From Psittacicella hinzii (GTDB lineage: Bacteria; Pseudomonadota; Gammaproteobacteria; Enterobacterales; Psittacicellaceae), in assembly GCF_003585885.1 (NCBI RefSeq), contig NZ_NRHC01000094.1:1-40596 (forward strand): a stretch of 40,596 nt of DNA. The letters run 5' to 3'. Within the stretch, counting starts at the first letter, position 1. Every line of letters starts with the position of its first letter. Positions 11,234 through 30,350 of this stretch are shown in pieces. The position numbers were made by a program, and so were the translations under genes. The notes under the pieces are model-generated. The model was not told the origin of the DNA, searched no databases, and saw only the letters and a list, made by a program, of their open reading frames with translations.

Positions 11234-11791
11234 ATGAAAAAATTAGCACTGGCGTCTGCTTTGGCTTTAACTCTATTAGCTCCAAGCGCGTTTGCAAACA
11301 CTGCGGTTCAATCTGGTAAAGTAACTTTTAGTGGTAAAGTTATTGATACAACTTGTTATGTAAAAACAGATGATCAAAACAAAACTGTAACTTTACCAAG
11401 CGTTGCAAAATCTGCTTTCACTAAGAAAGGTGACGTTGCTGGTCAAACAGCTTTTGAAATTACAATTACTGGTTGTACAAATGTAGCTACAGGTAGTAAC
11501 CAAGGAGGCGTTCACTGGTTAGTTGATGCAAATGTAGATGTAACAACAGGCACATTAAAAAATACATTAACATCAGGTCAAGCAACTAATGTAAATCTTC
11601 AGTTAGTGGATGCTAATTTAAAAACTATTAAGATCGGTGCTACAGATGATGTAAGCAACATTAATTATGTTGCCTTACAAAATAATCAAGATAAAACTGT
11701 ACGTTTCTATGCGCAGTATTATGCAACAGATACAGGTGTAACTGCTGGCGACGTACAAGCTATCGCTAAGTTCGAATTAGTGTACAAGTAA
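11234..11791 (+). CDS. fimA: Major fimbrial subunit (type 1 pilin), operon 2
   Basis: A 185-residue pilin, paralogous to the one at 4241. The signal peptide is MKKLALASALALTLLAPSAFA. The mature protein has QSGKVTFSGKVIDTTC, the second cysteine in ITGCTNV, and the same C-terminus KFELVYK. Start choice: AAAAAGG six bases before the ATG at 11234 matches the operon 1 arrangement, whereas the in-frame ATG at 11213 would add MNKKRFN in front of the signal peptide and has no ribosome site. Conserved segments (DVAGQT, TTGTL, VRFYAQYYAT, VTAGDVQA) alternate with changed segments (for instance DNTFAA against DANLKT), which suggests diversification of exposed loops. First gene of the second operon. The symbol is generic. 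Confidence 0.95.
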   Translation: MKKLALASALALTLLAPSAFANTAVQSGKVTFSGKVIDTTCYVKTDDQNKTVTLPSVAKSAFTKKGDVAGQTAFEITITGCTNVATGSNQGGVHWLVDANVDVTTGTLKNTLTSGQATNVNLQLVDANLKTIKIGATDDVSNINYVALQNNQDKTVRFYAQYYATDTGVTAGDVQAIAKFELVYK

Positions 11792-11808
11792 AGACATAGT
11801 TTTAAGTT

Positions 11809-11840
11809 AGGGCTGGGCTTTGTTATTCTCAGCCCTTTTC
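11809..11840 (+). terminator. Intercistronic terminator-like hairpin between pilin and chaperone (operon 2)
   Basis: AGGGCTGGG (11809-11817) pairs with CTCAGCCCT (11828-11836), nine pairs with one wobble, and TTTC follows. The stem differs in sequence from the operon 1 hairpin but keeps place and GGGCT core, which supports selection for the structure. Confidence 0.7.
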
Positions 11841-11856
11841 TTGTGATGAGGTGTTT

Positions 11857-12573
11857 ATGTTTAAACGTATCCTAGCTACCGCGTTACTTGGAGCCTTTAC
11901 TTTACAGCAAAGCCTAGCCAATGTAATCATGGCGACTCGCGTGATTTACCCTGCTAACCAAAAAAGCGTTGCTTTTAGTTTAACAGCTTCAGACGACAGT
12001 CCATCTTTAGTGCAAGTATGGATTGATAGTGGTGATCCGAACTCTAGTCCAGCAACAACCAAAGCCCCATTTGTAATTACGCCACCAATTTCTCGTGTTG
12101 ATCCAGGTAAAGGTCAAACTCTAAGAATTACCTACACAGGTCAGGCGTTACCTGCAGATAGAGAATCTATTTTCTATCTCAATGTTTTAGATATTCCCCC
12201 AAAACCATCAGGAGAAAATGCTCCGGTGAATTATTTGCAAGTTGCAATTAAGAGCCGTATTAAGCTTTTTTATCGTCCTGCGCTAGATATAAGCCTCTAC
12301 GATGCTTTTACCAAAGTAGAGTTTAGCTTAATCACAGAAAAGAATAAAAACTATCTTGTAGTGAATAACCCAACTCCTTACTACATTACTTATGACCAAA
12401 TTGAGTTAATGGTAGGTAAAAATGCCGTGGCTGTGCCAGAGGCAGATATGGTTGCCCCATTTTCAACTGTGCGCTATGCCTTACCGCGTGCGGTAAGCCC
12501 AAGCGCTCAAGTACAATGGACTACCATTGATGACAATGGTGGACGTCCAAAAGGAGTTACTCCTTTAAAGTAA
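11857..12573 (+). CDS. fimC: Periplasmic fimbrial chaperone (PapD/FimC family), operon 2
   Basis: A 238-residue chaperone starting MFKRILATALLGAFTLQQ, with a signal peptide cleaved after SLA. It has the same diagnostic set as its paralog at 4868: ATRVIYPANQKSV with the groove arginine, SRVDPGKGQTLRI, DRESIFYLNVLDIPP and IKSRIKLFYRP with the groove lysine. GAGG four bases before the ATG at 11857 fixes the start and equals the operon 1 layout; the GTG two codons earlier overlaps that ribosome site and is unlikely. Domain 2 differs most from the paralog (residues about 150-190), which may reflect tuning to its own pilin. It acts in the periplasm with the usher encoded next. Confidence 0.96.
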   Translation: MFKRILATALLGAFTLQQSLANVIMATRVIYPANQKSVAFSLTASDDSPSLVQVWIDSGDPNSSPATTKAPFVITPPISRVDPGKGQTLRITYTGQALPADRESIFYLNVLDIPPKPSGENAPVNYLQVAIKSRIKLFYRPALDISLYDAFTKVEFSLITEKNKNYLVVNNPTPYYITYDQIELMVGKNAVAVPEADMVAPFSTVRYALPRAVSPSAQVQWTTIDDNGGRPKGVTPLK

Positions 12574-12656
12574 TGGCTGTAATGTCTGGTTATTCCTACA
12601 AAAATAACTAATGGTTTGTAGAGAGTAAAGAGAGGTTAAAGAGAGACTTTGAGCTT

Positions 12657-12734
12657 TTTAGATCAGTAAGGTTGCTTAGGTCTTTAGAACAGTGAGGTCG
12701 CTTAGGTCTTTAGATCAGTTAGAGCTCTGGGTTC
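12657..12734. repeat. Three 26-bp direct repeats between chaperone and usher (operon 2)
   Basis: Units start at 12657, 12683 and 12709 (TTTAGATCAGTAAGG, TTTAGAACAGTGAGG, TTTAGATCAGTTAGA) and each ends in a form of CTTAGGTC. They lie in the 257-bp gap before the usher gene; operon 1 has no counterpart. They could be protein-binding sites, mRNA structure elements or a neutral tandem expansion. Confidence 0.75.
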
Positions 12735-12830
12735 TTTTAGGTTTCCATACCTTAGCTTTATCTAGGTTTCTATGGTCTCAGCCTTATCCCTATCTTGTTC
12801 TTTCTCTCGCAAACAAGATCATTTTTCCCT

Positions 12831-15365
12831 ATGAAAAGATTTAAGAGATTAGCACTTGGATCAATAAATTCTCTTTGTCTTGCCTGCTTAAGTGCGACAT
12901 CATCGCTAGCTTTGGCAAACTCGCCTTATGTGGAGTTTGATGCTAACTTCTTGCTAGCTACTGGAGGAGAGAATATTGACATCTCTCGCTTTAGTCGTGG
13001 GAACTACATTCCTCCAGGTGAGTATATTGCTGATGTCACTTTAAACAATGTCTACCTTGGTAAGGTAGAGCTGGTATATGTCGATGACCCAGAAAACAAT
13101 ACTACCAAACTTTGTGCTACTCCAACTCTACTTGCTATCTTGGATTTGACACCCGAAGCTATAGATTCACAATTGCTAGCTTCTACAATCTGTCCGTCCA
13201 TTGCGCAAGTAGTACCAGAAGCCAAGTTTGAGTTTGATATGGCAGAGCTTGACTTGCAAGTGGGTATTGCCCAAGCCTATGTTAAGCAACGTCCTTTTGG
13301 TTACATCGCACCAGCACGTTGGCAAACAGGGGTTCCTGTGCTATACACTCGTTACAATATCAATCGTTATATGAGTAACAGTAAAGGTTTTAGTTCCAGT
13401 CAATACTACCTTGGTGTTGACGCGGGCTTAAACCTTGGACGATTTAGTATTCGTCATTTTGGTTCTCTGGTATGGTCAAAGCGCCATGGGAGAGAATATG
13501 CAAGTTCTTATACTTACTTGCAACATGATATTGCCCCAATTCGTGGACAAATCCGTTTAGGTGACTTCATTACCAACAGTAGTATTAGTGACAATATTAG
13601 CCTACGCGGAGCGATGGTATTTTCCGATGATCGTATGCTAGCTAACTCTGAAAGAGGTTATGCTCCGATCATTCGAGGCATTGCTAATAGCAATGCTTTA
13701 GTTACCGTTAGTCAAAATGGTAACATTCTCCGTCAAATGACAGTTCCACCTGGTCCTTTTGCTATTTCCGACCTCTTCCCGATTGCCTACAATGGTAATC
13801 TTGAGGTTGAAGTCAAAGAAGCCAATGGGCAAGTACAAAGATTTGTCGTACCTTATACAGCTACAGCCGAGCTTATGCGCCCTGGCTATAGCCGTTATAT
13901 GCTGGCAGCTGGACGTTATCGCGAAGGCTCCAAGGTATTTAACAATGAAGTGGTGCAAGCTTCATGGCAGTATGGTTTAACTAACAACATTACTCTTAAT
14001 TTAGCTTTTAATGGTACCAAAGGGTATCATTCGGAGGTAATAGGTACGGCATTTAATACTCCAATTGGGGCTTTTGCTACCAATGTTACTTTCTCGCATG
14101 CCTTGCTAAATGGTTTGGTGTTCAGTGATGAAAGTGGTAAGTTCCGTGGGTATAGTTTTTCCGTATCTTACAATACTGTTATTAAGCCAACAAATACCAA
14201 CGTAACTGTAGCAGCTTACCGCTTTCTCTCCAAAGAGTACTTAGGTTTACAAGACTATATTAATCTAGATAATTTAAAGAATCAGTTTATCAAACCACGT
14301 GATCGTATTATTGGGCATTACCAAGCTAAGCACCAGTTGCAACTCACAGTTAGCCAACAGCTAGCTAAAGGCTATGGCTACTTTTACGTCCGAGGCATAA
14401 TGAATACTTACTGGATAAAGCGCTCCAAGCAGTTTAACTACCAAGTAGGTTATTCGAATAGTTACCGCGGGGTTAACTATAGTATTTCCCTTTCACAAAT
14501 CCGTGATAGCTTTGGATTTAAAGACAGTCAGGTATATCTCACTCTGTCTTTACCGCTTGATTTTGCTGCTAAGGGCAATAACCGTCCTTACCTAAGCCAA
14601 ACTCTGTCGCAAAGTAGTCGTAATAACTTTAGTAGTAATACTTCTATTTCTGGGTCGTTAGGTAAAGACGGACGTTATTCTTATAACGTCTCTTATGACC
14701 ATAGCAACAACTCACAGTACAATGCGGTTAGTCTAAGCAATACTTACGTCAGCCCTTACGCTACTTTAAATGCTTCTTTTAGTAAAGATAACAAAGACAA
14801 CCGTCAGTTATCTTACGGTATGTCTGGCGCAATTGTTGCCCATCCAAAAGGTGTTACCTTAGCCAACGATTTAAGTGAAACCTTTGCCATAGTGCACGCT
14901 AAAGGTGCCAAAGGAGCACAAATTGACGGAACTATTGGTAACCAAATTGACCGTTTTGGTAATGGGATTGTGCCGTATTTAAACCCATATGCTTTAAATA
15001 CGGTGGGGTTAAACATTGATAGTATTCCAGACAATGTAGAGTTTGCAGCTACAAGTATGCAAGTTATTCCACGTGCGAATACGGCAATGTTAGTTGAGTT
15101 TGATACTACCATTGGCAATACTGTTTTCTTTGATATTACCAATAGCGATATGTTACCTCCACCTATGGGAACCTTAGTGTTTAATGGTGCAGGAGAGCAT
15201 GTCGGAGTGGTAACTCAAGGAGGACGTATATACACTCGTGGAGTTTCAAGCTCTGGGGAGTTAAACCTCAGCTGGGGCGAGCAAAGCTGTAAGATTGACT
15301 ATAAGCTTAGCAGCAATATAGATAGTAATTTACCGGTAATTGTTCCGGTTAGTTGTAAATTCTAA
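12831..15365 (+). CDS. fimD: Outer-membrane fimbrial usher (FimD/PapC family), operon 2
   Basis: An 844-residue usher closely related to that at 5754. The signal peptide ends near SLALA. The N-terminal domain begins YVEFDANFLLATGGENIDI. The plug/barrel signature is present: RGYAPIIRGIANSNALV, PPGPFAISDLF, GNLEVEVKEANGQ, RPGYSRYMLAAGRYR. The C-terminal domain ends CKIDYKL...VPVSCKF with its cysteine pair. A longer reading from 12795 would add MFFLSQTRSFFP, which is unlike the paralog, so I start at MKRFKRL (12831). No strong Shine-Dalgarno is visible for either. Differences from the paralog are spread through the barrel. It is the assembly pore for the second fimbria. Confidence 0.95.
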   Translation: MKRFKRLALGSINSLCLACLSATSSLALANSPYVEFDANFLLATGGENIDISRFSRGNYIPPGEYIADVTLNNVYLGKVELVYVDDPENNTTKLCATPTLLAILDLTPEAIDSQLLASTICPSIAQVVPEAKFEFDMAELDLQVGIAQAYVKQRPFGYIAPARWQTGVPVLYTRYNINRYMSNSKGFSSSQYYLGVDAGLNLGRFSIRHFGSLVWSKRHGREYASSYTYLQHDIAPIRGQIRLGDFITNSSISDNISLRGAMVFSDDRMLANSERGYAPIIRGIANSNALVTVSQNGNILRQMTVPPGPFAISDLFPIAYNGNLEVEVKEANGQVQRFVVPYTATAELMRPGYSRYMLAAGRYREGSKVFNNEVVQASWQYGLTNNITLNLAFNGTKGYHSEVIGTAFNTPIGAFATNVTFSHALLNGLVFSDESGKFRGYSFSVSYNTVIKPTNTNVTVAAYRFLSKEYLGLQDYINLDNLKNQFIKPRDRIIGHYQAKHQLQLTVSQQLAKGYGYFYVRGIMNTYWIKRSKQFNYQVGYSNSYRGVNYSISLSQIRDSFGFKDSQVYLTLSLPLDFAAKGNNRPYLSQTLSQSSRNNFSSNTSISGSLGKDGRYSYNVSYDHSNNSQYNAVSLSNTYVSPYATLNASFSKDNKDNRQLSYGMSGAIVAHPKGVTLANDLSETFAIVHAKGAKGAQIDGTIGNQIDRFGNGIVPYLNPYALNTVGLNIDSIPDNVEFAATSMQVIPRANTAMLVEFDTTIGNTVFFDITNSDMLPPPMGTLVFNGAGEHVGVVTQGGRIYTRGVSSSGELNLSWGEQSCKIDYKLSSNIDSNLPVIVPVSCKF

Positions 15366-15373
15366 GGATATTT

Positions 15374-16426
15374 ATGCAAATTGTAAAATACCTTTGTACT
15401 AGCTTACTAGCTGGTAGTCTCTTGCATTACATCCCAGCACATGCTAATACCGTAGTACAGTTTACTGGTAAGCTCAATGCTGATGGTAAAACGGTGAACT
15501 ATGAATCGGTGAGCTACTACGACATTAACTCGTTTCTTTGTGGAAATGTAGACTACGATAACTATCGTTATCGTATCGTAGACTGGCGTTTTTCAGTTTC
15601 ACCTAACTCTGCTGAAACTAGTCGCTACCTTAAACTAAAGAGAGTTTACTTCCGTGTGCAAAGAGCTGCGGGTACAGGCTACAACCTTTACCCTGTGAGT
15701 GATGGCGGTGGTGCTCTACGTGTAACCCAGAACTTTTACTATCAAGATAGAATCAAAATCTATTTTGATTTGGAGTTTGATGAGAACTTTCTCTTTAACG
15801 GTGGGGATATAACCATCCCTGCCAATAGTTTACTGCGTACGACTGCAAGTAACTGTTTCTATGTCCAAAGAGATAATACTTCTCTTTCAACTGTTAACCA
15901 AAATATCTTCCGTGGAGGTCCGGCTAACTTCCAAATGGTATTTAGATCAAGTAACGCCGTTACTTTAAACTTCACGGAAAAAACTTGTCGTGTTGGTGGA
16001 CAAGCTAATCAAACCGTACAGCTTGATACAGTTCTTAAATCAACTCTTGATTCCAAACGTACAGTTAAAGGTGGAGATTTTACAATCAGAATTAACTGTT
16101 TACAAGCTACAGTTGCTAATGCTTACGTTATCTACACTGATAGTAACACTCCAAGCAATACTTCGCAAACCCTATCCTTAAGCCGTGCTTCCACGGCTAA
16201 AGGAGTACGTTTGCAGATAGTTGATAACTCGACTGGACAAGCGATTAAGTTTGCCAACCAACCAAGTTTTAATTTTATTGGTTTAAACGACGCAACGCTG
16301 TTTACGGCTGCTAATGGTACTCGTCGTGTAATTGATCGTAGTTATACGGTTAATTATGTAAAAAACGGTAATGTTAGTGCTGGAACAGTTAATGCGCAAA
16401 TGATTTATTCTTTTTACTACCGTTAG
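15374..16426 (+). CDS. Two-domain fimbrial adhesin-like tip subunit, operon 2
   Basis: A 350-residue protein with a signal peptide (cleavage near PAHA) and the two-domain plan of tip adhesins. The N-terminal domain has cysteines C56 and C161. The C-terminal pilin-like domain has C205 (KTCRVGG) and C242 (RINCLQ), SYTVNYVKNGNVSAG and a final YSFYYR. It starts eight bases after the usher stop. Compared with the operon 1 homologue, short blocks are shared (DGKTV, SLLCGN/SFLCGN, RIKIYFDL, TASNC) but the stretches between them in the N-terminal half are clearly different, which would fit different ligand specificity. The receptor is unknown. Confidence 0.8.
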   Translation: MQIVKYLCTSLLAGSLLHYIPAHANTVVQFTGKLNADGKTVNYESVSYYDINSFLCGNVDYDNYRYRIVDWRFSVSPNSAETSRYLKLKRVYFRVQRAAGTGYNLYPVSDGGGALRVTQNFYYQDRIKIYFDLEFDENFLFNGGDITIPANSLLRTTASNCFYVQRDNTSLSTVNQNIFRGGPANFQMVFRSSNAVTLNFTEKTCRVGGQANQTVQLDTVLKSTLDSKRTVKGGDFTIRINCLQATVANAYVIYTDSNTPSNTSQTLSLSRASTAKGVRLQIVDNSTGQAIKFANQPSFNFIGLNDATLFTAANGTRRVIDRSYTVNYVKNGNVSAGTVNAQMIYSFYYR

Positions 16427-16880: not shown

Positions 16881-16985
16881 CTGTTTTGTTTGTGCCTGTA
16901 CTCGTGGTGCTACTCTTGTCTTTTGTGCTCTGAGGTTCTACTCTTGTCTCTTGTGCTGTGTTACTTTTGTTTCTGTGCTCCTAAG

Positions 16986-17080
16986 TGCTCTTCTTGTGTT
17001 CTTCTTGTATTCTTCTTGTGTTCTTCTTGTATTCTTCTTGTGTTCTTCTTGTGTTCTTCTTGTGTTCTTCTTGTGTTCTT
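16986..17080. repeat. 11-bp tandem repeat TGTTCTTCTTG, eight units plus a partial
   Basis: Eight exact or one-base-variant units begin at 16986 and repeat every 11 bp, with TGCTCTTCTTG first and two TATTCTTCTTG variants, followed by a 7-bp partial. The pyrimidine-rich array directly follows the operon 2 terminator. A short open frame across it is a by-product of the repeat. Confidence 0.92.
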
Positions 17081-17391: not shown

Positions 17392-20300
17392 CTACTTGCT
17401 TTTGTTACCTTTGTTGTTGCTAGGGTAAACTTTACGTAAGTAAGCAAAGTAAGGATACCAATCAGTAGTTTCAAGTAAATCCAAGCTTTGTTCACGTGCC
17501 AGAGCAAGAGAGTTACAGATTTCACTTGCTTGGTGATTGTGGGCTAAGTAAATAAACTCAGCTGGGAATGGATTTTTATTACGATTGTCTTTGTCCCAAG
17601 CTTTTACTTGCTCTTTATCTGCTACAAGGTAGAGGTAAGGAGCTTTAGTTAAGCTTGGATCACTAGCAACCACTGCTTCAAATAAGCGTTGATCAGCAAC
17701 CAGCATAACTTTGAGCTCGGTGAACTTGTAGTAGAGATGTTTAAAGAGCTCTACCAGATCACACAGCGGTAGTTGCTGGTGCTCTTGGTTTACCTTGCTT
17801 AAATTATGCATAAGCACTTGAGCAGTTAAGTGGTAACTTTGACTAAGGTCTTTGAGGTTAAACTTCCAGTAAGGTTTTAACCCTGTTGCTTGGTAAATTT
17901 CAGTTAAGCTAACTTCACCTTGTTGGTTAAACTTAGCTAACAGAGCTTTAAGATCAGGATTTACTTTACCAAGATTAAAGGTGTTGCCTCTAATACGTTG
18001 TAAGTACTTACTGTTGTTATTACCTATAGTAACCTTATCTACCGGTAATGGGAACTGATAGTGTTGTGAAGTTACTGTTCCTAAAGTAATTAGTTCTTCA
18101 CTGGTTGGTTCCCCTTTCCATCCTAAAGTTGGTGCTAAACTTTGCTTATCAAACGCAAACTCTTGATAAGTTTCACTTGGATAAGCAAGACTTGCTTGGC
18201 GTTCACGCTCTAGGCTGTCAAAGTCCACATCGTCAAAGCAGTCATTGTCAAAGTCATCTTTGTTAACCTTGCCATTAACGTTTGTATTTACGCTAGCGTT
18301 TGCGTCAACGTCAATGATTGTACGTGTGCTTTGCTCATGCTCTGCTTGTCCAAAGAGCTCTTGCACTTGTGCCGGAGTTAATCTGCTTAAGTTCGGCACA
18401 GCTTCTTGATTACGATGCTCTTGCATTTTGAACACAGTGTTGAGAGTATCAAACTGGGCTTTAACTTCAGCTTTGTAATCTTGTGCCAGTTCTTCTTGAG
18501 CTAAGTCTTGGAGAAGTTTTTCGCGGTAGAAGTATACCGGAGTTAGACGCGAATAGTCTACGCCGATGTGGTGGAAGTTTAATTCACGTTCATAGGCGAT
18601 ATAAGACTTGTCGGTATTTTCCTGGTATAAACCAGCTAATTCCAGTTTGTGGTGGATCTTAGCTAGTTGTTCTCCGCTTAAAGTATCTAGACTTTGCTGG
18701 AAGAGTAACCAGTGTAAACGATCATTAACTAAGTCCTGACTTCTTGGTGGCGCAATTACCGGTGCTTGCGTTACTTCGCGACTAATAAAGTCGCGTAACT
18801 TGTCACTTTCAAATTGCACTGAATAGAACGGAGCTTTAGTTAAGGTTACACGCCAGTGTGATAAAGATTCAAATGGTAGAGTAACTAAAGAGGTTACCGC
18901 TGGCGGTAAGTCTTTATACTCTTGTAATGCATCGCTTTGTTGCATTACCGCATTGAATACTTTTTGTACCATTAATTGCGCATGTGCTTTAAAGGTAGCA
19001 ATAAGTTCGCTATGATCACGTCCCATAAAGCTACTTTCTTCGCTAGTTGCGTACACTAAGTGAAGTGGACGGCTAGGTAAGTACACTGCTTGTTCAAGTT
19101 GAGTACTTGCATTAATGCGAATTAAGTTACGGGCAATTTCACGCTCGGCATAAGTGCGACTTAACAGCAGTTTAAATAGTTCACGACCATAAGATTTAAA
19201 CAGTGACGTTGGTGTTAAATCTTGGGCATAACTAGTTACTGGTGAATAGTCGAACTTAATTGGCAATGGACGACCTTTTTTGCCATGAATTACAAACTCA
19301 TGATCTTGGTACCAAAGTTTTTGTAAACTACCAATTTGTGGAACATTTAACATTAATGGCCAGCTTGGATCAGGCAGTTTAATGTTATGCACTGCAAAAG
19401 GCATATACAGAGGTAAACGATAGAAACGCGGTAGCGTATCGTTTTGCTCCAAGAGGGTCATCTTGTTCATTGCCAACCAGTAGAGGTTATACGCCCCTAG
19501 CGCTGGTTGATAAGCAAAGCCAGCTTTGTGCATGAAAGTATTGTACTCTGGTACAGTGCGTGGCAATCTATCTTGTGGTGTAAATGGATAGATAAAGTCA
19601 TGCACTAAAGCCGCTTCCAAGAGCTTAGCTGGTAAAAACTCATTTGGCACTGGCACAATATGCTCTGAAGCTTCGAATTTTTGTTGTTCAAGGGCTTCTG
19701 GAGCAAGAATAACATAAGGCTGTTGGGTTTGTGTTTCTAGCTCAAAGTAGATATCTTTACCACGACGCGTTAGATAACGATCACCACGCAGTACTCCTTT
19801 AAATAACAGGTAACCCGGATCTAGAGTAAGCGTAATTGAACGTGAAGTCATAGCATCACGATTTACACTTTGATAGTTGTACGCTAAATGATAGTAAGCA
19901 TTGTTGAGGTGTTGGTTAACTTCAACAAGGCTAGCGTTGTTTTGACTAACAATGTGCTCTTCTTGATCAAGGCTATAACCAAGGTATGTAGCAAATGCTT
20001 GCTGATCTGGCGAAGTGAGTACATGCGCAGTATGCGCGTAGGCACGGAGTAAGTGCTCTGGGATAGTGTACTCGAGACTTAACCAAGCAGCGCGGTTGAG
20101 TTTAAGATCACGACGAGCAAACTCAAGCGCTTTATTTAGCTGTTGCTCCATTAACTCAAGGTTATAGAGAGGTGTCGCTAATAACTGTGGCATGATCTTG
20201 AAGTAGAGATACGCCACAAAGTTATTGGCAAAACCTTGCTCAATACTTGCTTTGTTTAATAAGCCTGTAGTTAACGGAGAACTTGCGAGAATTTTTTCAA

Positions 20301-23300
20301 GCTCGTGCTCTTTTAACCCCACCTGTTGCCAGAGGTATAGTAGTTGCGCTTTAGCGCTATTGAGATCAAGTTCTCCGGTTAGGGTCGGAACTTTAAACTC
20401 ATCTTGCCCTTTATTTGGGTTAAAGATGTTAAAGCGACTAAATAAACCATCTACTAAAGCATCCTCACCCTGGTAACCCACAGCCGGACGATACAGATTT
20501 GGCGAGTCAGCAAACACCGCACTTGGGTGCTGACTAAAGAGACGTAAAGCTAAACCTGTGTCTGCTTTAGTTTGCAACTGCTTAATTAAAGCTTGACGCC
20601 ATTGTAAGGCATACTCGGTGGTAGTTTTACCCGGAGCGAACATACTTTGCGTTAAAGACTGCTCAAGTTGGAACTTAGCAGAGTTGAGTAGTTGACGCGT
20701 TTGTTTGCCGAGTACTTTGCTAAGGTTGCGCCATAAGGCTGGTGCATTTGCTAGGGCAAATTGCTCATAACTTGGGTGGGCAAGTAACTCTTTAGAGGCT
20801 GGAGCAAAGTTTGTAAAACTGAGCTCTTTGCTTGCCTCTCTACTAGTACTTGCTTCCTTGTTTGCCTCTTTGCTACTAACTTTAGTTAGCTTACTAGCTG
20901 CGCGCATGGAAATTAGCGGGTAACTTGCACTTGGTGCTAGTTTAACCCCACCACTTAGGTAAGCACTAAAGCCAGCTACGTCTTTGATCTCTAGACCTTT
21001 GGCTTGTTCAAGGGCTACCGAGCTATCTGGGTTTAAGAAAGTTCCAGCTTGCTCTTGGGCTTTTAAGTTAGCATCTTGCTTACTTGCAAGGTTAGCTTGC
21101 CATAAAGCTGCGCCGTCTAAGTTCGCAATAATCGTTTGCGCGACTTCTACTTGCTCTGCCGTTAAGTCTTTTACCAGACTTGCGAGCTTGTGTGGTACAC
21201 CTTTGTCGGTTAGAGTTAGTAACCAAGTTAAGTTGTGCTCTTGGGCTAACTCTTGAACTTGCGCTTGGTTTAAGCTCACTTGCTCGCGGTAAGCGAGAAT
21301 ACGACCGCGCTCAAGCATGCTTGCCATGCCTTTTTCATCAAACTCGGCAAGGGTTGCTAGCGCTTGCTCAAGCTCAAGATCCGGCATAATGCGCGGAAGC
21401 ATTTGTCCGAGGCTTACTTGGTAGCGTTTGAGCTCTTTACTTGAGAGCTCGTAAGCTTCTTGTACTGCTGGTTCAAGCGCTTTTAAGAACAGAGATAAGT
21501 TGATCTTATCTAAGTTAGTTTGGATAAAGTCAAGGTTATCTTGTCCAAGTAAGTGGTAGATAAACCAAAGTTCAAGGGTACTTGGATTAACTGCATAAGT
21601 TAAAAGTTTAGAAGCGCTGTTGTATTGTTTAAGAGCTTCTTGGTAATCTTGCGCAGTTAAAGGTACACGCCATTTTTGTAATGGTGACTCTAAGTCCTTT
21701 TCTAATTGCGTTGCTTGATGGGCAACAGGAATTGGTACTAAGACCAAGTTACCTTCACGTGCACTATATTGCTCCCCAAGTTTTGGTAAAGCAAAAGCTT
21801 CTCTTACGCGTTCACTAATAAAACTTAGTTTGTCATCTAACTCTTGTCCTAGACTAGTGAAAAAGCCATCAGTTGAGGTTTTACTAGAGAGGAACACACT
21901 GTTAGTTAGAGTTAAATCTAAGTGTAAACGCTCGTAGAACTCTTCTAAGTGCTGGTAGTTAGTGAAAACATCAGAGGCATTGCGTACTAGCGGTAAAGGC
22001 TCGTAAGCAAATAACTCGATATTGTTACGATGCTCAAGCATGTTCATTAATGGATCAGCATCGTAAGTGTACACTTGTGGATCAAGGGTTGCTGAAGCAA
22101 TATACTGCCAGCTATTAGTTGGCAGGTTATAGCTTTGCAATACTGCCTTGCTCTTAAAGCGACGTTTGAGATCAGGTTGAGCTTGCTCAAGCTTATCCAG
22201 ACGACTAGTTTTGTTTGCCAGAGTTTTGGCTTTAAACTTGCTTGCTTTGCTGGTAGTAACTTCTTGAGCAAAGACATCAAGATACAGAGGCGTTAACTCT
22301 GGTAATAAAGTCGCTAGATGTGGCTCTACTTTTAAAGCTTGGTTAATGTTCTCGAGGGTTACACGGACAAAGTAGCTAACATTACCAGGGTGAGCTTCTT
22401 GACGGAACTCATATAACGACATGTTGAGAGAAACATAACGTGTACGGTTATACAGAGTTTTCATTAAGAGGCTTTCGTAGCTTTGACGTACAGGTAGAGA
22501 GCGGTAAATCTCAAGAAGTTGCTGATGAGTAACTGCTTGGAGTTGGTAAGCATTTCCTGTACGTAAGTACGGATACTCAATGCTATTTAACGCATTAGTA
22601 CTTATGTTGTATGCGGTAAAACCTAAAGCATTGTAACTAAGCACATGCGTTTGACGTTTGAGACGATTTTTTGCACGGAAAAAGTCCCAAGTTAAGTCTG
22701 AACGAGTTTCAAGCCACAGATCAAGCGGACGACGAGCGAAGTTAACTTGAGTAAGAGCAAGTTTGTCCTCCATGCTTGGATAAGGTAAGCTCTCTTCGCG
22801 CTCCATTTCCTTGATAAGGTCATGAGCAGGATCTGCTACAGTTGCAACCTTATCGTCATTTGCTTGGCTATTAGATACTTGGCTATGAGATGCTTGGGTA
22901 TTAGTGTTAGAGCTGTCTATTTCGTCTGCTTCTACTTCTCTCTCCACTTCTTCAACTGCCGAAGCTTCACCGCTTCTCTTCAGAGCCAGAGCTTCTTCAA
23001 AAGCTTTTCTGAGGAATTCGAATTCTTCAGGAGAGATTGCTAGCTCTTCAGCCTCATCATCTTCCTCATCATCTTCCTCATCATCTTCCCCATTTACATG
23101 AGCAGCAAAGCTTGCTGGTGCTTTACTTTTATCCGCAGGCTCTGCAGGAGCTTTAGTAAAGCTTTCAAGAGAACGCATGTGCGCTTTACTTGCAACTTCT
23201 TCAGTCGCTTCTTCAGAAAGACCAAGATAGTCACTTTCTTGTACTCCAGGAAGGATAGCTCGCACTACTTCAGGATCGGTACTCATGGCAAAAGCAGTAA

Positions 23301-25782
23301 TTAACTGTACTCCCGGCACGATATTTGCCGTTAGTTTAGGTTCTATGCTCTGCTTTCTAGCTTTGGCAATCTCGTCCTTATCAAAGATTTCCTCGAGTTG
23401 CTCTGGGAACATAAACATGTTCTCAATAGATTCTAGATCTACACCAAACTCTTCGATAATCTTGGTTAAAAGCAGTTTGCTTTTATCTGCCGTTAAGTAA
23501 TTGTCCGGATTGAGATCATTACCATGCTCATCTTTAAAACCGTGCATAAAGAGGAGATGGTAGAAAGCTTCCATTCTCTCTTCTTCGGTTACTAGTTGAG
23601 TAAAGCTATTGTCGTTAATGCTAGTATGCACCCCAACTTCTGGAGTAAAGCTAGCTCCGTCATCAAGGTTATATACTTGCTCTTTGTCAGCTTTACTTTT
23701 AGCTTTGCTTGCTTTTTTCTTGCTAGCTGAAGTTGTGCTTTCCTCTGAAGTTTTTGCAACTTGATCTTTGCTAGAGGTAGAAGTAGCGTCAGAGCTTGCT
23801 TTATCGCTAGATGTTTGACTATCAGCTTGGCTAGTTGCAAGAATTTGCCACGCATTGGTTCCTTGGTTAAGCTGCGGAGGCGCAATTAACGTAGGGTTAA
23901 AGTCATCAGCTCCGTTTTGGTTTTGAGCTTGACCTTGAGCTTGCTTAGTAGAGCTACCCTTACCTGCTTGTCCTAAAGCTGAGCTCTCTTTTTGTCCTTC
24001 GAGGGCAAAAAGAGACGCAAGGGCTTCTAAAGCACCGATTTCGATTGCTTCTTCTGTAGGAACAAACTGCGCATGTTGGGCGTCCTTAACAAGGAACTCT
24101 GGCACGAGGTATTTTGCCATGCTCGCATTTACGAGAACTGTACGATAGATAATTTGCTCGTAAGCTAGTGGGGTCGTATCTTCTAAGTGCACCGGTAAGT
24201 TAGTTGGTGTCACCGTATGGTCAGCCTGCATGAGGCGGTACTTTTCAAGAAGAATACGTTGTTTTGCACTAACAGTTAAGGCAACTGGCGCTGCTGGGTT
24301 TAAGTAAGAGTAAGAGCTACGTAAACTTGGGTGGTTATACTCCCCAAATAAACGTCCATACACAGCCACCATAAATGGGTTTACTAGGTAGTATGGTTGA
24401 TCAAACTTCCCAGTAGCTACTAAACTCGAGTCATAGTGACTCTCAAACATTTGTGAGAGACTAAAAGAGTTACTACGTCTTTTTACTTGCTCTGGGTCAA
24501 GATTGCTAATTGATCTTACACCTAGAGGAGCAATCCAGTTGAGATAGTGCTGATACTCCATCATGCGCACTAAGTTATTGCTGCGCTCTTGTTTTTTAGC
24601 ACTCTCAAGGGCTTTATGGTAAAGGGTTGGAATAGCGTCCGCTTGGTAGTGCTCAAGGTTTGCGGTTAAATTTTGGGCAAACTTAGCTAGCACCTCGGCG
24701 TAGGCAATACGCTGGGCGCGGGTTTTGTCTTTAGGAGACAGCGCGCGTTTAAGTTGACTAAGCTCTTTGCTTACTTGCTTATGAGCAAGTTGGAGTTGCT
24801 CTTGGAGTTGACCATAAGCTTGGGCATTTAACCATGCTGAATAAGGTGTTTGACTATAGTTAGTAAACGGAAAAACTTCAGCTACAACTGCAGGGATTTC
24901 TTTATAATTACTTACTAATGGATTTTTTAACGTTGCGAGCTCCATAAAGTAGAGGTAAGAAGCAAGATCTTTGAATGCAGTGTTTTTCTGTTCTATCCCC
25001 ATGAGGTAAACATCGTTTTCTTTTAACCCCGTATGTGAGAGGTAAGAAGCAATGCTTGCTGCGCCTTTGTCTTGCAACTCTTTATAAAAGAGTTGAGAGA
25101 CTGCTTCATTGCCTCCACTGCGTAGTGGGTAAAAAGAATAGTAGAAGCGATCTTTCGCCAGTGCTTTCGCAAGAATTTTTTTTGCTTCAGGATTACTTTC
25201 CTCAATAAACTGTACTTGGCTTCTTTGCTCCCAACTTTGGTTATGGGCAAAGTTTTTAGTTACAGATTTATAGTTTAAGTAGAGGTCAAGGTCAGCGTTA
25301 AAGAGCTTAGGGGCAACCGCTGGATTTGGTTGAGCAGGGGTATCTGTTGGTGAAGCAAGCGCGGGGATCTTGGCAATGTTATTTGCATTACGCGCTGGGT
25401 AGTTTTGGTAAAGTTCCTCGTAAACTAAACGATAGACACTAAAGTTATATAAAGCGTCTTTTAAGTTAGGGAAAGGGATAACTTTACGGGTTGCTTCTTT
25501 AAACAGAGGTAGGTTACCCATTAGTTTGGTGTCAAAAACTTCCTGCGGAAATAGGGGATTTGCCGAGTAGTTTAACTCTGGGTTACTGCGATATCTATCT
25601 ATCCCCATTTCACTAAGAAATGGCATAGAGTGCAGACGCCAGTTAGCAATGCTTTGATAGGTATAAGCATGCTTAAAATCATGTAAGTCTATGCGTGGAG
25701 ATAACTCTTCCTGCAAGTGCTGGAAAGAGTTCTCTCCATGAAAAGCATAGACTTGTAATGGTTGTCTTTTGTCCTTTGTCAT
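17392..25782 (-). CDS. Giant protein A (2796 aa), function unknown
   Basis: A single uninterrupted frame of 2796 codons from ATG at 25782; a TTG two codons upstream (25788) is possible but no ribosome site supports either. I do not recognise a domain. There is no signal peptide and no evident transmembrane segment, so it is probably cytoplasmic. Globular-looking stretches rich in Leu, Tyr, Gln and Lys are separated by low-complexity inserts: Ser/Thr/Gln/Lys-rich at about 600-705, an acidic run at about 895-915 (encoded by a 12-bp DNA repeat near 23045-23090), Ser/Asn/Gln-rich at about 955-985, Lys/Ser-rich at about 1635-1655 and Asp/Asn-rich at about 2485-2520. No Walker, nuclease, methyltransferase or protease motif was seen. 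An A8 run (minus strand, 25176-25183) near codon 200 could slip. It follows lpxH but is separated from it by a terminator, so it has its own promoter or depends on read-through. Confidence 0.85.
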   Translation of the reverse strand: MTKDKRQPLQVYAFHGENSFQHLQEELSPRIDLHDFKHAYTYQSIANWRLHSMPFLSEMGIDRYRSNPELNYSANPLFPQEVFDTKLMGNLPLFKEATRKVIPFPNLKDALYNFSVYRLVYEELYQNYPARNANNIAKIPALASPTDTPAQPNPAVAPKLFNADLDLYLNYKSVTKNFAHNQSWEQRSQVQFIEESNPEAKKILAKALAKDRFYYSFYPLRSGGNEAVSQLFYKELQDKGAASIASYLSHTGLKENDVYLMGIEQKNTAFKDLASYLYFMELATLKNPLVSNYKEIPAVVAEVFPFTNYSQTPYSAWLNAQAYGQLQEQLQLAHKQVSKELSQLKRALSPKDKTRAQRIAYAEVLAKFAQNLTANLEHYQADAIPTLYHKALESAKKQERSNNLVRMMEYQHYLNWIAPLGVRSISNLDPEQVKRRSNSFSLSQMFESHYDSSLVATGKFDQPYYLVNPFMVAVYGRLFGEYNHPSLRSSYSYLNPAAPVALTVSAKQRILLEKYRLMQADHTVTPTNLPVHLEDTTPLAYEQIIYRTVLVNASMAKYLVPEFLVKDAQHAQFVPTEEAIEIGALEALASLFALEGQKESSALGQAGKGSSTKQAQGQAQNQNGADDFNPTLIAPPQLNQGTNAWQILATSQADSQTSSDKASSDATSTSSKDQVAKTSEESTTSASKKKASKAKSKADKEQVYNLDDGASFTPEVGVHTSINDNSFTQLVTEEERMEAFYHLLFMHGFKDEHGNDLNPDNYLTADKSKLLLTKIIEEFGVDLESIENMFMFPEQLEEIFDKDEIAKARKQSIEPKLTANIVPGVQLITAFAMSTDPEVVRAILPGVQESDYLGLSEEATEEVASKAHMRSLESFTKAPAEPADKSKAPASFAAHVNGEDDEEDDEEDDEAEELAISPEEFEFLRKAFEEALALKRSGEASAVEEVEREVEADEIDSSNTNTQASHSQVSNSQANDDKVATVADPAHDLIKEMEREESLPYPSMEDKLALTQVNFARRPLDLWLETRSDLTWDFFRAKNRLKRQTHVLSYNALGFTAYNISTNALNSIEYPYLRTGNAYQLQAVTHQQLLEIYRSLPVRQSYESLLMKTLYNRTRYVSLNMSLYEFRQEAHPGNVSYFVRVTLENINQALKVEPHLATLLPELTPLYLDVFAQEVTTSKASKFKAKTLANKTSRLDKLEQAQPDLKRRFKSKAVLQSYNLPTNSWQYIASATLDPQVYTYDADPLMNMLEHRNNIELFAYEPLPLVRNASDVFTNYQHLEEFYERLHLDLTLTNSVFLSSKTSTDGFFTSLGQELDDKLSFISERVREAFALPKLGEQYSAREGNLVLVPIPVAHQATQLEKDLESPLQKWRVPLTAQDYQEALKQYNSASKLLTYAVNPSTLELWFIYHLLGQDNLDFIQTNLDKINLSLFLKALEPAVQEAYELSSKELKRYQVSLGQMLPRIMPDLELEQALATLAEFDEKGMASMLERGRILAYREQVSLNQAQVQELAQEHNLTWLLTLTDKGVPHKLASLVKDLTAEQVEVAQTIIANLDGAALWQANLASKQDANLKAQEQAGTFLNPDSSVALEQAKGLEIKDVAGFSAYLSGGVKLAPSASYPLISMRAASKLTKVSSKEANKEASTSREASKELSFTNFAPASKELLAHPSYEQFALANAPALWRNLSKVLGKQTRQLLNSAKFQLEQSLTQSMFAPGKTTTEYALQWRQALIKQLQTKADTGLALRLFSQHPSAVFADSPNLYRPAVGYQGEDALVDGLFSRFNIFNPNKGQDEFKVPTLTGELDLNSAKAQLLYLWQQVGLKEHELEKILASSPLTTGLLNKASIEQGFANNFVAYLYFKIMPQLLATPLYNLELMEQQLNKALEFARRDLKLNRAAWLSLEYTIPEHLLRAYAHTAHVLTSPDQQAFATYLGYSLDQEEHIVSQNNASLVEVNQHLNNAYYHLAYNYQSVNRDAMTSRSITLTLDPGYLLFKGVLRGDRYLTRRGKDIYFELETQTQQPYVILAPEALEQQKFEASEHIVPVPNEFLPAKLLEAALVHDFIYPFTPQDRLPRTVPEYNTFMHKAGFAYQPALGAYNLYWLAMNKMTLLEQNDTLPRFYRLPLYMPFAVHNIKLPDPSWPLMLNVPQIGSLQKLWYQDHEFVIHGKKGRPLPIKFDYSPVTSYAQDLTPTSLFKSYGRELFKLLLSRTYAEREIARNLIRINASTQLEQAVYLPSRPLHLVYATSEESSFMGRDHSELIATFKAHAQLMVQKVFNAVMQQSDALQEYKDLPPAVTSLVTLPFESLSHWRVTLTKAPFYSVQFESDKLRDFISREVTQAPVIAPPRSQDLVNDRLHWLLFQQSLDTLSGEQLAKIHHKLELAGLYQENTDKSYIAYERELNFHHIGVDYSRLTPVYFYREKLLQDLAQEELAQDYKAEVKAQFDTLNTVFKMQEHRNQEAVPNLSRLTPAQVQELFGQAEHEQSTRTIIDVDANASVNTNVNGKVNKDDFDNDCFDDVDFDSLERERQASLAYPSETYQEFAFDKQSLAPTLGWKGEPTSEELITLGTVTSQHYQFPLPVDKVTIGNNNSKYLQRIRGNTFNLGKVNPDLKALLAKFNQQGEVSLTEIYQATGLKPYWKFNLKDLSQSYHLTAQVLMHNLSKVNQEHQQLPLCDLVELFKHLYYKFTELKVMLVADQRLFEAVVASDPSLTKAPYLYLVADKEQVKAWDKDNRNKNPFPAEFIYLAHNHQASEICNSLALAREQSLDLLETTDWYPYFAYLRKVYPSNNKGNKSK

Positions 25783-25854
25783 AAACAATTAATCAATAAA
25801 TATTCTTGGCTTCAAAGGGATTTTTAAGCCTTACTATATTTTAACAATTTTTTA

Positions 25855-25884
25855 TAAAAAAAAGAGTACCAAATTAGGTACTCT
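25855..25884 (-). terminator. Terminator of lpxH, overlapping its stop codon
   Basis: On the minus strand AGAGTACC/GGTACTCT (8 bp, 25884-25877 with 25870-25863) has a 6-nt loop and is followed by eight T. The first stem base pairs fall within the TAG stop codon of lpxH. Confidence 0.88.
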
Positions 25885-27598
25885 ATAAGTTTTCCGGATC
25901 AATAAATGCAAATGTAAAACGGTTAATTGCTTTGCCTTCTTTAAAGGCTTCTTGTACAAGTAAAGCTACGGATGCACGACTTTGTGGTTGCGTGCAAAGG
26001 GCAATAGCTTTTTCCATACGTTCTTGCAAATCTTGAGGATTGCAAGTTTGTACACGAAGAGGTTCTTGGGTGTTAGTGCCTGTGCTTGCATTGGCATTAG
26101 TATCTGCACCAGTAGTTACACCTGAACCTGCATTTGCACTTGCACCTGTATTTTGTGCAGAAGCAACCTCTGGAGGATTAGTTTGAGAGCTTGCTTGCGC
26201 ATTAGTTTGTGAACTAGCTTGCGAAGTTGTTGCACTCTTGCTCTTTGGACAAGTTGCTTGGGCACTTTCTTGCTCTAGGTCATCTTGGGCAGTTTCTTGC
26301 CAAGCGCGAAGCGCTTGCTCTTGACGAGCTTGTTGCTTATCCAAATCTGCTTGACTTAACCAGTCCGCCATAGAAATGCCATAAAAGCTTGAGTTGTTTT
26401 CTTGCGGATCAAGCACAAAAAAGTCTTGATTTAGGAGCTGTAACTTATCCCAAGTGGTTAGGGCTTGCTCTTGTTCTTTAACCCCACGTAGGTTGTTACT
26501 TGCAGTAAAAGTACGAATTTTACCCACCGGAATTGGGTAAAGAGAATCTACTTCACTGTAAGCCTCACGGTCTCGCATTTTTGCCAGATTACCAAAATCA
26601 ATAAACTCATGGATATTTTGGTAAGAATGGATTTGCGGTGCTCTTTGTCCATAAGCTTGTGACCAATTGAGCATACGCTGGCGATGGATATGACCGTAGA
26701 TCATGAGGTTAGCTTGGCTCATATGCGCTAAGTAAGCAGTGTAGTTTAACTCTATGTCAGCCATATCTAGGGTACTTGCTTGCCCTAGAGAAGCTTGCTC
26801 TTGGTTGCTTAGGCTTGCAGAATTACTAGAGTTGTTAGCGTTAATTGTAGCTGTTAACAGCTCTTCTTGCTGTTTACGTTTAGCTTTCGAAGCTTGTGAG
26901 ATACGATTAGCGATTGCTTTTACTAAAAAAGTAGGAATGATCTTTTCGATAAAGCGAACAAAACCAGAACGGACAACACGGCGATATCTTTGGTAAGCTT
27001 CGTCAGCTAAACAAAGGTTATCTCCATGACAGAGCCAGAGGCGTAAGCCCTCTGGGTCTTGCGCTTGATCTAAAGTTTTACTCTTGTATCTTAGTTCATT
27101 AAGTAAGCTATCACGATTTGTAAAGGTATAGTTACTTAGAGTTGCAACTTGAGGATCAAGTTGGGTAAAAGTTGCAAGAGTTGCTTTGTCTCCCTCTTGG
27201 TTAATAGAGAAGTCGATTAAAGTATTTTCTGGTAAGTAAATAGCACCTATGGCTTTACAAAATTTCTTCCCGAGTAAGAAATCACGGTTACCTACCATAA
27301 AGAAGATCTCGCCTCCAGCTTCTTTAAACGCCAGAAGTTTAGCTTGGATAGGTTTAAACCAGTCAGGAATAAAATCCCCAATCCCTAGTGCTAAAAAATC
27401 CCCAAGGATAAAGAGACGAATGTGTGCTTGTAAACGGTGGTCAATGGCAAGCTGGGTTAGCTTGTCCACAAAGTTAGTAAAGAGTTGTTCTAACTCATTG
27501 GTACTTGCATCAAGATGCAGGTCACTAACAAAGAAGTTGTAGAGGGTCAGGTCATCACCTTCAATGCGAGTTAGAAATGGTAGAGTGTAATTGTCCAT
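25883..27598 (-). CDS. lpxH: LpxH-type UDP-2,3-diacylglucosamine hydrolase with long insert and C-terminal tail
   Basis: LpxH cleaves UDP-2,3-diacylglucosamine to lipid X and UMP in lipid A synthesis at the inner membrane. The calcineurin-like metal site is complete: D26 and H28 (SDLHLD), D67 (LGDF), N104 in GNRDFLLGKKF (a very LpxH-like block), H191 in CHGDNLCLADEAYQRYR, and H303/H305 in GHIHRQ. The helical cap region KAIANRISQASKAKRKQ also fits. The protein has 571 residues, while LpxH is usually about 240. The extra length comes from an insert at about 131-187 before the HGD motif, an Asn/Ser/Gln insert at about 253-280, and a tail from about 345 that includes Ala/Ser/Thr/Gln/Asn-rich low complexity (about 450-520) before an ordered-looking end (QERMEKAIALC...FTFAFIDPENL). 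The reading frame is intact. No clear ribosome site. A relaxed-specificity metallophosphoesterase is the alternative. Confidence 0.82.
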   Translation of the reverse strand: MDNYTLPFLTRIEGDDLTLYNFFVSDLHLDASTNELEQLFTNFVDKLTQLAIDHRLQAHIRLFILGDFLALGIGDFIPDWFKPIQAKLLAFKEAGGEIFFMVGNRDFLLGKKFCKAIGAIYLPENTLIDFSINQEGDKATLATFTQLDPQVATLSNYTFTNRDSLLNELRYKSKTLDQAQDPEGLRLWLCHGDNLCLADEAYQRYRRVVRSGFVRFIEKIIPTFLVKAIANRISQASKAKRKQQEELLTATINANNSSNSASLSNQEQASLGQASTLDMADIELNYTAYLAHMSQANLMIYGHIHRQRMLNWSQAYGQRAPQIHSYQNIHEFIDFGNLAKMRDREAYSEVDSLYPIPVGKIRTFTASNNLRGVKEQEQALTTWDKLQLLNQDFFVLDPQENNSSFYGISMADWLSQADLDKQQARQEQALRAWQETAQDDLEQESAQATCPKSKSATTSQASSQTNAQASSQTNPPEVASAQNTGASANAGSGVTTGADTNANASTGTNTQEPLRVQTCNPQDLQERMEKAIALCTQPQSRASVALLVQEAFKEGKAINRFTFAFIDPENL

Positions 27599-27753: not shown

Positions 27754-27779
27754 AAAAAACCGAAACTAGGCTTCGGTTT
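27754..27779 (-). terminator. Minus-strand terminator upstream of lpxH
   Basis: On the minus strand AAACCGAA/TTCGGTTT (27779-27772 with 27764-27757), with a 7-nt loop, is followed by TTT (six T in all, three of them in the stem). It lies 156 bp before the lpxH start, so a minus-strand RNA from around 27800-27950 would end here, or lpxH transcription would be attenuated here. Confidence 0.75.
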
Positions 27780-27844
27780 ATCAGGTTAGTTTATAGCAAT
27801 TAGAATGAGCGCCTTGTAAAATTAGCGCGCAAATAGAAAACAAC

Positions 27845-27939
27845 GTATCGCTTTTCAAAAACAGTATGTGTCTGCCGAATCTCTCTATTATAAAACTGGC
27901 GTGTGGCACCAGCTTTCCCTTTGAATTGAAAAGCGATAC
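27845..27939. other. 95-bp inverted-repeat element between two minus-strand terminators
   Basis: GTATCGCTTTTCAA (27845-27858) is exactly complementary to TTGAAAAGCGATAC (27926-27939). The interior has a further small hairpin (CTGG...CCAG near 27896-27912) and a TATAAT on the minus strand. It has no open frame and no obvious target duplication. It lies between the hairpins at 27946-27980 and 27754-27779. It may be a small structured RNA, a leader element of lpxH, or a MITE remnant. Confidence 0.6.
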
Positions 27940-27945
27940 TAAGGG

Positions 27946-27980
27946 GTAAAAACCATTATGAGGTTAAACTCGTAATGGTT
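27946..27980 (-). terminator. Probable minus-strand terminator
   Basis: A 12-bp stem AACCATTATGAG/CTCGTAATGGTT (27951-27962 with 27969-27980), with one wobble and a 6-nt loop, is followed on the minus strand by TTTTTACC (the first two T belong to the stem). It would end a transcript coming from the structured region at 28000-30000. Confidence 0.55.
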
Positions 27981-28273
27981 AAATTTAGGAGATAACAAAT
28001 GTTTAAGAACGTTTATAGTTTTTTGTCGGTACTTAACCAACGGAGGAGGAAGTTAAAGGTTTGGCTTGTAGATTCAAACTTTTTAACTGTTTAGGGAAAG
28101 AGTTTAAGTAAAAAATAAAAAGAACGGATCTTCTAAAAACTTAGAAAAAAGGTAAGGGGGAATTCTTAAATATCTTTTACAAAAAAGGTTGCTTTGTTAG
28201 TAATTATTAGTTGCTTGTAGGCAACTAGTAGTAGTCGTTAAAATTTGGCTTTGTTAATTTTTTTAGTAACTTT

Positions 28274-28375
28274 AAGTCGGAGCTTTATTTAAAAATAGTC
28301 GGAGCTTTTATTACTTTGATAAGTTTGGAGCTTTAAAAAGTTTTGCTGGAGCTTTAAAAGTTTTGCTGGAGGTCT
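28274..28375. repeat. Tandem AGTCGGAGCTTTA-type repeats
   Basis: AGTCGGAGCTTTA (28275), AGTCGGAGCTTTTA (28297), AGTTTGGAGCTTTAAAA (28321) and two copies of a 20-bp GCTGGAGCTTTAAAAGTTTT-type unit follow one another. The motif resembles the degenerate repeat at 1950-2118. Confidence 0.7.
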
Positions 28376-28487
28376 AGTGACTTTTTAAGTAGTCGATTTT
28401 AGTTATTTAAATAAGCTTAAAGTTTACTAGTTTTAAATTCTTAGTAGGTTTTATAAAAGGTTTTAAAGCAGATTTGTTGCCTTGTTT

Positions 28488-29990
28488 TATCAGTTTTGGA
28501 CTGATTTATAAATTTGGGCTGTTTTATCCTTATGTCCTTTGCTGTTTTAGCTTATTAGAGGTAAAAAAGGGTTAATATTCTTTTTCTTTTCCCTTTAATA
28601 AAACCAGAAATAAAAAACATAAAGGGAGAAAGAGGAAAGAATATTAACTCTAAGAATTACATTTTTAGGACAGGGATACATGACTAAGTTTAAGAGGATT
28701 AAGTAGCGAGCTGCCACAAGCTACAAGAGAGTTTTGAGTTAATCCTGCTTAAACTTAGAAAGTACAAAATGCATACTCATAGCACCTATTTTTATAACGT
28801 GGAATTTTTTCTTCAAAGAGAATCTCTACTAAAGAAAAAGAATGAGTAATATGCCAGATTCTACCTCTTCCTCACAAATATTTCAGCCAAGTCTATGGAG
28901 GAAAAGATAGTTGAACTACAAGTATGCATATTTTAGCTTTGCCAAAAAGCTAAAATATGAAAACTTAGTGATTTTTCAATTTGAAAAAAATAAAAAAATC
29001 TGAGAGAAATAACAGTAGACTAATTTGCTTATTAAATGTTAGGCTACATCATTTAATAACACAACATTAGTACATTAAAAGAAAATCATCCCCGAATTTA
29101 CTTTTAACTGACAGCTTTCGGTCAGAGGCTTATTTGCTCTATTATGTTACTTTATAGGAAGAGGAATTACAAAGTAACGCGGAAACATTTTTATTCCTGT
29201 GGAAGAGAGTAAAAACTGAAAGAGATCCTTTCGTCAATGCCAGAGAAAATTTTTCTCTGCAGTGGCACATTGATGAACTGTACAGAGGAGATAGTACAGG
29301 TAGTCAAAAAAGGCTATTTTCTGTTTCTCTTAATAAAGCAAAATGGTAAAAGCTATCCTAGCTGTTACAACTCTCGGATTTAAACTGAGAGTATCTTAGT
29401 TGTTTTAAGTAGGAATGTATAAAGAACTTTGTATGTGATTGGTCTTTATGCTTCTTAATATAAAAGGGAGTTCACAACTAAGAAAACAGATGGTTTTGAC
29501 AAAACTTACTAAATGTTTAGTTGAGACAAATGAGTTTATTTATAAAAAAGATTAGTCTAAAAATTAAATTAATAAAGTGCCATTAAAAAGATAAAGAACG
29601 CAATTATTAAATTAAATATTATTTTTAATCTAAACATATTATAAAACAGAAAAAATAAAAATTATTAAAAAATGATAAAATAGAAGATATAAATTTATCA
29701 AACTGTGAAGTAGATCACACTTTTGTCTGGAGCTCAACAAAAAGAATGAGATATTTCCTAGGGAAAAGACATATAGCTTTAATATCCTCATGGTTTCGTA
29801 GGTTAAAACGAAAGTTTAACTTAGATTTACTCATATCTATATAAGTATAATCAAAAAGTTTATTATCTTTTGACTTAGAGATTATTGTGATTTATTGATA
29901 TAAATAAAAATAGCATTATCTACCTTTGTTATATAAATAATTAAAAAATTGAGAAATTAACTATATTTTTCGTAGATCGTTTATTTTTAT
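28488..29990. ncRNA. Candidate large structured RNA: about 1.5 kb of consecutive stem-loops
   Basis: There is no coding frame, but complementary arms follow each other almost without gaps: 28488-28504; 28571-28648 (arms of about 28); 28684-28758 (19 bp, one bulge, inner GTAGC/GCTAC); 28771-28854 (GCATA-CTCAT arms with two nested stems); 28861-28910; 28927-28959 (perfect 14 bp); 28972-28988; 29019-29071 (ACTAAT outside a perfect 10-bp stem); 29075-29107; 29108-29125; 29146-29178; 29234-29273; 29278-29299; 29367-29403; 29419-29449; 29475-29523; 29747-29790 (nested). After about 29530 the sequence is so AT-rich that weak stems are expected by chance. Strand is undetermined: the minus-strand terminator at 27946-27980 favours minus, but this is not proof. 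It does not show the conserved cores of RNase P RNA, tmRNA, SRP RNA or 6S RNA. A graveyard of small palindromic elements is the main alternative. Confidence 0.4.
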
Positions 29991-30074
29991 TTAGACGAGA
30001 GTGATAACAAATTACCAAGAAAGTGGCAGGTTGAGGATTGAGTAAAACTAGCTTTAAACTAGTCAAGAAAAAGG

Positions 30075-30350
30075 AAAGCTAGACCTAAAATCGTAATTTA
30101 AGGCAAAGGCGTTAAAAATAAAGCTAGACCTAAAATAGCAAGTTAAGGCAAAGGCTTAAAAAGAAAGCTGGGCTAAAAATAGCAAGTTAAGGCAAAGGCT
30201 TAAAAAGAAAGCTGGGCTAAAAATAGTAATTTAAGACAAAGTCGTAAAAAGAAAGCTAGGCTAAGAATAGTAATTTGGGGTACAGCTCAGGTAAAGGCGT
30301 AAAAAATAAAGCTTGACCAAAAATAGTAAGTTAAAGTAAAAGTGTAGATG
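30075..30350. repeat. 44-bp tandem repeat, six units, upstream of thiI
   Basis: Units begin with AAAGCT at 30075, 30120, 30164, 30208, 30252 and 30308, so the period is 44-45 bp and the last interval is 56. The core is AAAGCTNGRCTAAAAATAG then TAAGTTAAGGCAAAGGC. The third and fourth copies are nearly identical. The units are contiguous, without unique spacers, and the period is not a multiple of 3. Confidence 0.9.

Follow-up and report, generated by a model that had tools for sequence, protein, structure and literature searches.

In the window, the whole 40,596-nucleotide stretch of DNA analyzed here from the bird-associated bacterium Psittacicella, an lpxH-like gene (25883-27598, minus strand) and thiI (30591, plus strand) are separated by a 3.0-kb gap, which is on balance best read from its sequence as encoding a CRP-activated, fast-evolving long noncoding RNA on the minus strand, probably a trans-acting regulator. 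The predicted existence of a minus-strand noncoding transcription unit at this locus is likely in its own right; the trans-acting role is the weakest step, and the combined statement is for this reason put forward with less confidence. The original prediction had placed a large structured RNA at 28488-29990 on the basis of dense, nested hairpins. A large structured RNA is still the best-supported reading, whereas its strand (minus), its limits (29631-27754) and the reasoning behind it were revised. The main support is now a predicted promoter, CRP box and terminator found in four species, together with a covarying element that lies outside the interval first proposed (Table 1).

Table 1. Features predicted or located in the lpxH-like/thiI gap (positions of the window)
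Feature	Position	Strand	Remarks
Predicted noncoding transcript, ~1878 nt, 29631 to 27754	27754-29631	minus	Bounded by TATAAT/CRP box and terminator
CRP box TGTGATCTACTTCACA, AAAG just before	29704-29719	minus	Matching relative place in 4/4 species
-10 element TATAAT, 60 bases past CRP box	29638-29643	minus	
Rho-independent terminator AACCGAAGCCTAGTTTCGGTTTTTT	27754-27781	minus	Recognized by eye
Conserved element, consisting of closing helix 27926-27939/27845-27858, a variable inner hairpin and the conserved junction	27845-27939	minus	
Conserved junction: GAGAGAUUCGG (27885-27875) and CACAUACUGU (27870-27861)	27861-27885	minus	Invariant in three species
Perfect 14-bp hairpin	28927-28940/28946-28959		Loop of 5
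Nested hairpin, 10 bp (29029-29038/29050-29059) within 6-bp ACTAAT/ATTAGT stem	29020-29073		
Stem of 19 bp with one bulge	28684-28758		
Long stem, 13-bp perfect core plus inner pairing	28571-28648		

The divergent lpxH-like/thiI pair flanks a gap in all four Psittacicella species examined, namely the window genome, P. gerlachiana (L027), P. hinzii (L028) and P. melopsittaci (L029), each represented by one sequence and the window genome being incomplete (92%). P. melopsittaci and P. gerlachiana have gaps of approximately 1.4-1.5 kb; that of P. hinzii is 5.4 kb long and additionally contains two ORFs, 164 and 151 aa in length, in its thiI-side part. The original prediction noted that no open frame exists in 28488-29990; the whole gap of the window was found to have no ORF of at least 80 aa, and no convincing small ORF or frame is conserved across the gaps of the four species. 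The position of the gap is constant in all four; its letters are almost wholly changed, and the body of the predicted transcript is not alignable between species. Apart from weak AT-rich matches, a DNA search of 59 genomes with the region recovered nothing but the locus itself. No similar phage or plasmid DNA was found, and an origin from either was rejected on that ground. Between the CRP box and thiI, an imperfect 44-bp tandem repeat is present in five to six copies at 30069-30334, and shorter A-rich repeats occupy the matching position in P. melopsittaci.

The control sites are conserved across the four species. The pattern AAAGTGTGATCTANNTCACA, which we take to agree with the CRP-site consensus, is present on the minus strand in each of them, and an exact TATAAT follows at a distance of 60, 50, 50 and 39 bases in the window genome, P. 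gerlachiana, P. hinzii and P. melopsittaci, respectively. The chance probabilities of the TATAAT spacing across the four species multiply to approximately 1e-4. These distances differ between species by about one helical turn, which CRP class I promoters tolerate, and the box occupies a class I position ahead of the -10 element in every species; the -35 regions of the predicted promoters are weak. Each of the four genomes encodes a CRP-family protein, with a score under the curated cut-off for Crp itself. Elsewhere in the genus, surveyed for both boxes and hairpin density in stretches totalling approximately 0.9 Mb of Psittacicella DNA, boxes of the AAAGTGTGATCTANNTCACA type are nearly all intergenic, and in several of them the AAAG side points away from the following ORF, a polarity that agrees with minus-strand transcription at the locus. 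A second AAAGTGTGATCTANNTCACA box, at L102:13314-13333 (G000:C24), lies upstream of an ORF of approximately 68 aa in a hairpin-dense spacer. At the downstream end, the predicted unit has a rho-independent terminator of its own, which the terminator scan missed in the window owing to a T tail that is too short; the scan recovers minus-strand counterparts ahead of the lpxH-like gene in the three relatives. The transcripts predicted from these sites measure 1878, 840, 2304 and 760 nt in the species order given above.

Between the control sites the DNA folds in excess of shuffled sequence. All hairpins named in the original prediction were located within 28488-29990, with adjacent stems abutting exactly at 29107/29108, and the interval falls below 60 of 60 dinucleotide shuffles (z -7.2 on the plus strand and -7.6 on the minus strand). 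The folding of this interval was thus borne out and its limits were not: 29632-29990 barely beats shuffles (z -2.0 plus, -1.3 minus), 27754-28487 to the left also folds in excess (z -2.8 plus, -3.6 minus), and the structured part runs from approximately 27754 to 29631. With base pairs limited to 150 nt (span-150 folding), the minus strand inside the predicted transcripts reaches z values of -8.1, -8.7, -11.9 and -5.1 in the window genome, P. gerlachiana, P. hinzii and P. melopsittaci, and the DNA upstream of the CRP box gives 0.3, -4.3, -0.6 and 0.1 in the same order, so that the excess folding largely ends at the predicted transcription start. Within each of the four species z is more negative on the minus than on the plus strand; a strand call by stem G-U content did not favor minus. 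The density of ungapped Watson-Crick stems is 3.7-7.1 per kb, compared to 0.4-1.3 in shuffles. Some coding stretches reach z values of -5 to -7, and one -9.8, in span-150 folding, and the folding z alone is therefore not diagnostic.

Hairpin density and nesting, which had been considered not typical, proved to be common in Psittacicella intergenic DNA. The stem score of intergenic pieces from the four species is 36-48 per kb against 7-10 in shuffled sequence (approximately four- to fivefold). Among 92 intergenic pieces of at least 600 bp, the predicted transcript of the window lies near the 65th percentile, and the orthologues in the three other species rank at percentiles 91, 91 and 99. The orthologous regions made up five of the top seven among 191 windows of 1.2 kb in a first sample, and in a larger sample other Psittacicella spacers equal their stem density. 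Stem scores at least threefold above shuffles were also seen, on small samples, in certain other genomes of the order, which makes part of the hairpin excess general. As spacers of the genus are hairpin-rich in general, hairpin density alone is weak evidence, and it was rejected as proof of a structured RNA. A further very long stretch tiled with hairpins, 6.7 kb in length and lacking an ORF of 100 aa, is found in the window's own genome at 5655-12397 of L099 (G000:C21).

This background lends weight to a rival reading in which the region is an ordinary hairpin-rich spacer, its inverted repeats produced by a DNA-level process, its CRP box having another use and a functional long RNA not being made, which would also agree with the roughly equal folding of both strands and with a body that is unconserved between species. 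We consider this explanation unlikely, but one to be taken seriously; against it stand the constant order and orientation of promoter, box and terminator in four species, the folding excess that is largely bounded by promoter and terminator, and the presence of a covarying single-copy element.

That element has the junction layout GAGAGAUUCGG-N-CACAUACUGU, common to the window genome, P. gerlachiana and P. melopsittaci. Its closing helix comprises 11 aligned pairs, four of them compensatory with both sides changed, and 97% of cells are paired, compared to at most 56% paired and at most one compensatory pair in slid controls; with three sequences only, this covariation is good but small evidence. 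Covariation in relatives was accordingly found for the helix of 27845-27939 and not for the body, which is mostly unalignable between species and leaves the element as the one part where covariation can be shown. A covariance model of the element scores 89-98 bits on the minus strand versus at most 24.5 on the plus strand, with three convincing loci and no others. The element is single copy in each of the three genomes having it; of the 395 genomes searched in the order, three carry its motif, and these are all Psittacicella. It was not found in P. hinzii, even with filters off. Conservation between species is limited to the control sites and the hairpin-chain character, plus the element junction in three of the four. 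A search of the window's own genome for complements of the two conserved 10-mers found none elsewhere, so that no antisense target is evident, and antisense action through these 10-mers was rejected.

The location of the element raises the alternative of a short 3' sRNA consisting of element and terminator only (approximately 27950-27754, about 200 nt), processed or made from an internal promoter, with the rest being spacer. The sole strongly conserved and covarying part does lie there, near the terminator in the window and in P. melopsittaci. However, no conserved internal promoter was seen, the conserved CRP promoter lies far upstream, an extra hairpin block separates element from terminator in P. 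gerlachiana, and P. hinzii has box and terminator without the element; we regard such a short RNA as improbable. Far less plausible is that the RNA forms a long 5' leader to the lpxH-like gene and that the terminator serves as its attenuator: that gene is the next one on the minus strand in each of the four species, but the terminator precedes it in every one, a TATGCTAAAAT-like sequence past the terminator in three species (by eye) suggests a promoter of its own for the gene, and no antiterminator alternative was identified. A CsrB-like, CsrA-binding sponge on the plus strand, suggested by the G-richness of that strand (GC skew 0.14-0.23), GGA in some of its loops and an encoded CsrA-like protein, is scarcely credible, since the conserved promoter and terminator indicate the minus strand, where GGA is unenriched and mostly paired, the element model favors minus, and no conserved plus-strand promoter or terminator was found.

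A CsrB-like sponge on the minus strand was rejected as well: the predicted transcript of the window's own species carries GGA 10 times, mostly paired, compared to 8.9 in shuffles, and those of the relatives show no GGA enrichment either, which makes a CsrB-like sponge unlikely. The locus shares with CsrB/CsrC-type sponges a chain of stem-loops and an encoded CsrA-like protein, whereas the predicted RNA is much longer and GGA is unenriched on its strand. Anti-Shine-Dalgarno loops were also rejected, CTCC being enriched in the window's own species only (12 versus 5.1) and not in the relatives; C-rich stretches are overall no more unpaired than in shuffles.

The expectation that the locus would not match known housekeeping RNAs was confirmed with the families of Rfam 15, none of which matched at gathering score in the window and three relatives; permissive scans of the locus gave sub-threshold matches only. 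RNase P RNA (RF00010) does not match at the locus and lies on another contig, and it is present in all four Psittacicella genomes; 6S RNA (RF00013) has no match in any of the four. CyaR and Spot 42 are CRP-regulated trans-encoded sRNAs of enterobacteria, a group typically about 100-300 nt long. Like these, the locus is an intergenic noncoding unit with predicted CRP control and its own promoter and terminator; unlike these, it spans a predicted 0.76-2.3 kb and is hardly conserved in sequence within the genus. CRP control has been documented for many sRNAs in Yersinia pseudotuberculosis (PMC4376681). OLE, GOLLD and ROOL are large ornate RNAs with conserved sequence and elaborate conserved secondary structure (PMC12286853); the predicted RNA resembles them in being long, highly structured and noncoding, but it has no Rfam match and one short conserved element only, and their covariance models do not match the locus. 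The sRNAs predicted in Pasteurellaceae are conserved among related Pasteurellaceae (PMC4986893). They are likewise intergenic, sequence-predicted and from related bacteria, whereas the present element was found in Psittacicella only among the 395 genomes of the order searched.

For the favored long minus-strand RNA, we infer transcription, CRP control and a role along the following lines. CRP-cAMP would bind the box at 29704-29719 and activate the promoter with TATAAT at 29638-29643. Transcription would start near 29631, pass through the stem-loop chain and then the element (27939-27845), and end at the terminator near 27754, ahead of the lpxH-like gene. The RNA would act as a trans-acting regulator of the CRP regulon, with the hairpin chain stabilizing and spacing it and the junction GAGAGAUUCGG...CACAUACUGU as the obvious candidate for the site where a protein or RNA partner would bind. 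As the 10-mer complements are absent elsewhere in the genome, a protein partner or short, discontinuous pairing appears likelier than a long antisense match.

More speculatively, and with considerable doubt, the locus could represent an undescribed class of CRP-switched hairpin-chain RNAs of 0.8-2.3 kb, in which selection acts on promoter, terminator, stem-loop character and one junction only, the RNA being a scaffold or sponge that can drift almost freely in sequence. Further members may sit in other hairpin-dense Psittacicella spacers. If transcribed, the RNA would be unusually long for a noncoding member of a CRP regulon, one that kept its control sites and fold density while drifting past alignment within one genus, and it would offer a test case for the minimum sequence that a functional bacterial RNA must conserve. 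The locus was recognized through synteny, promoter and terminator; sequence-based homology searches would miss such RNAs.

Other repeats and gene clusters were noted in the window. A 7-bp repeat (CTAGAAA) is present in approximately 21 copies at 1-148, immediately ahead of a DUF285 repeat protein (186-1937), and is possibly a phase-variation tract. Nearly nine copies of the 11-bp repeat GTGTTCTTCTT at 16985-17080 lie past the stop of a 2798-aa ORF (17392-25788), and this tract could shift the frame of the end of that ORF. Finally, two similar chaperone-usher-type fimbrial gene clusters are arranged in tandem at 4241-9346 and 11213-16426.
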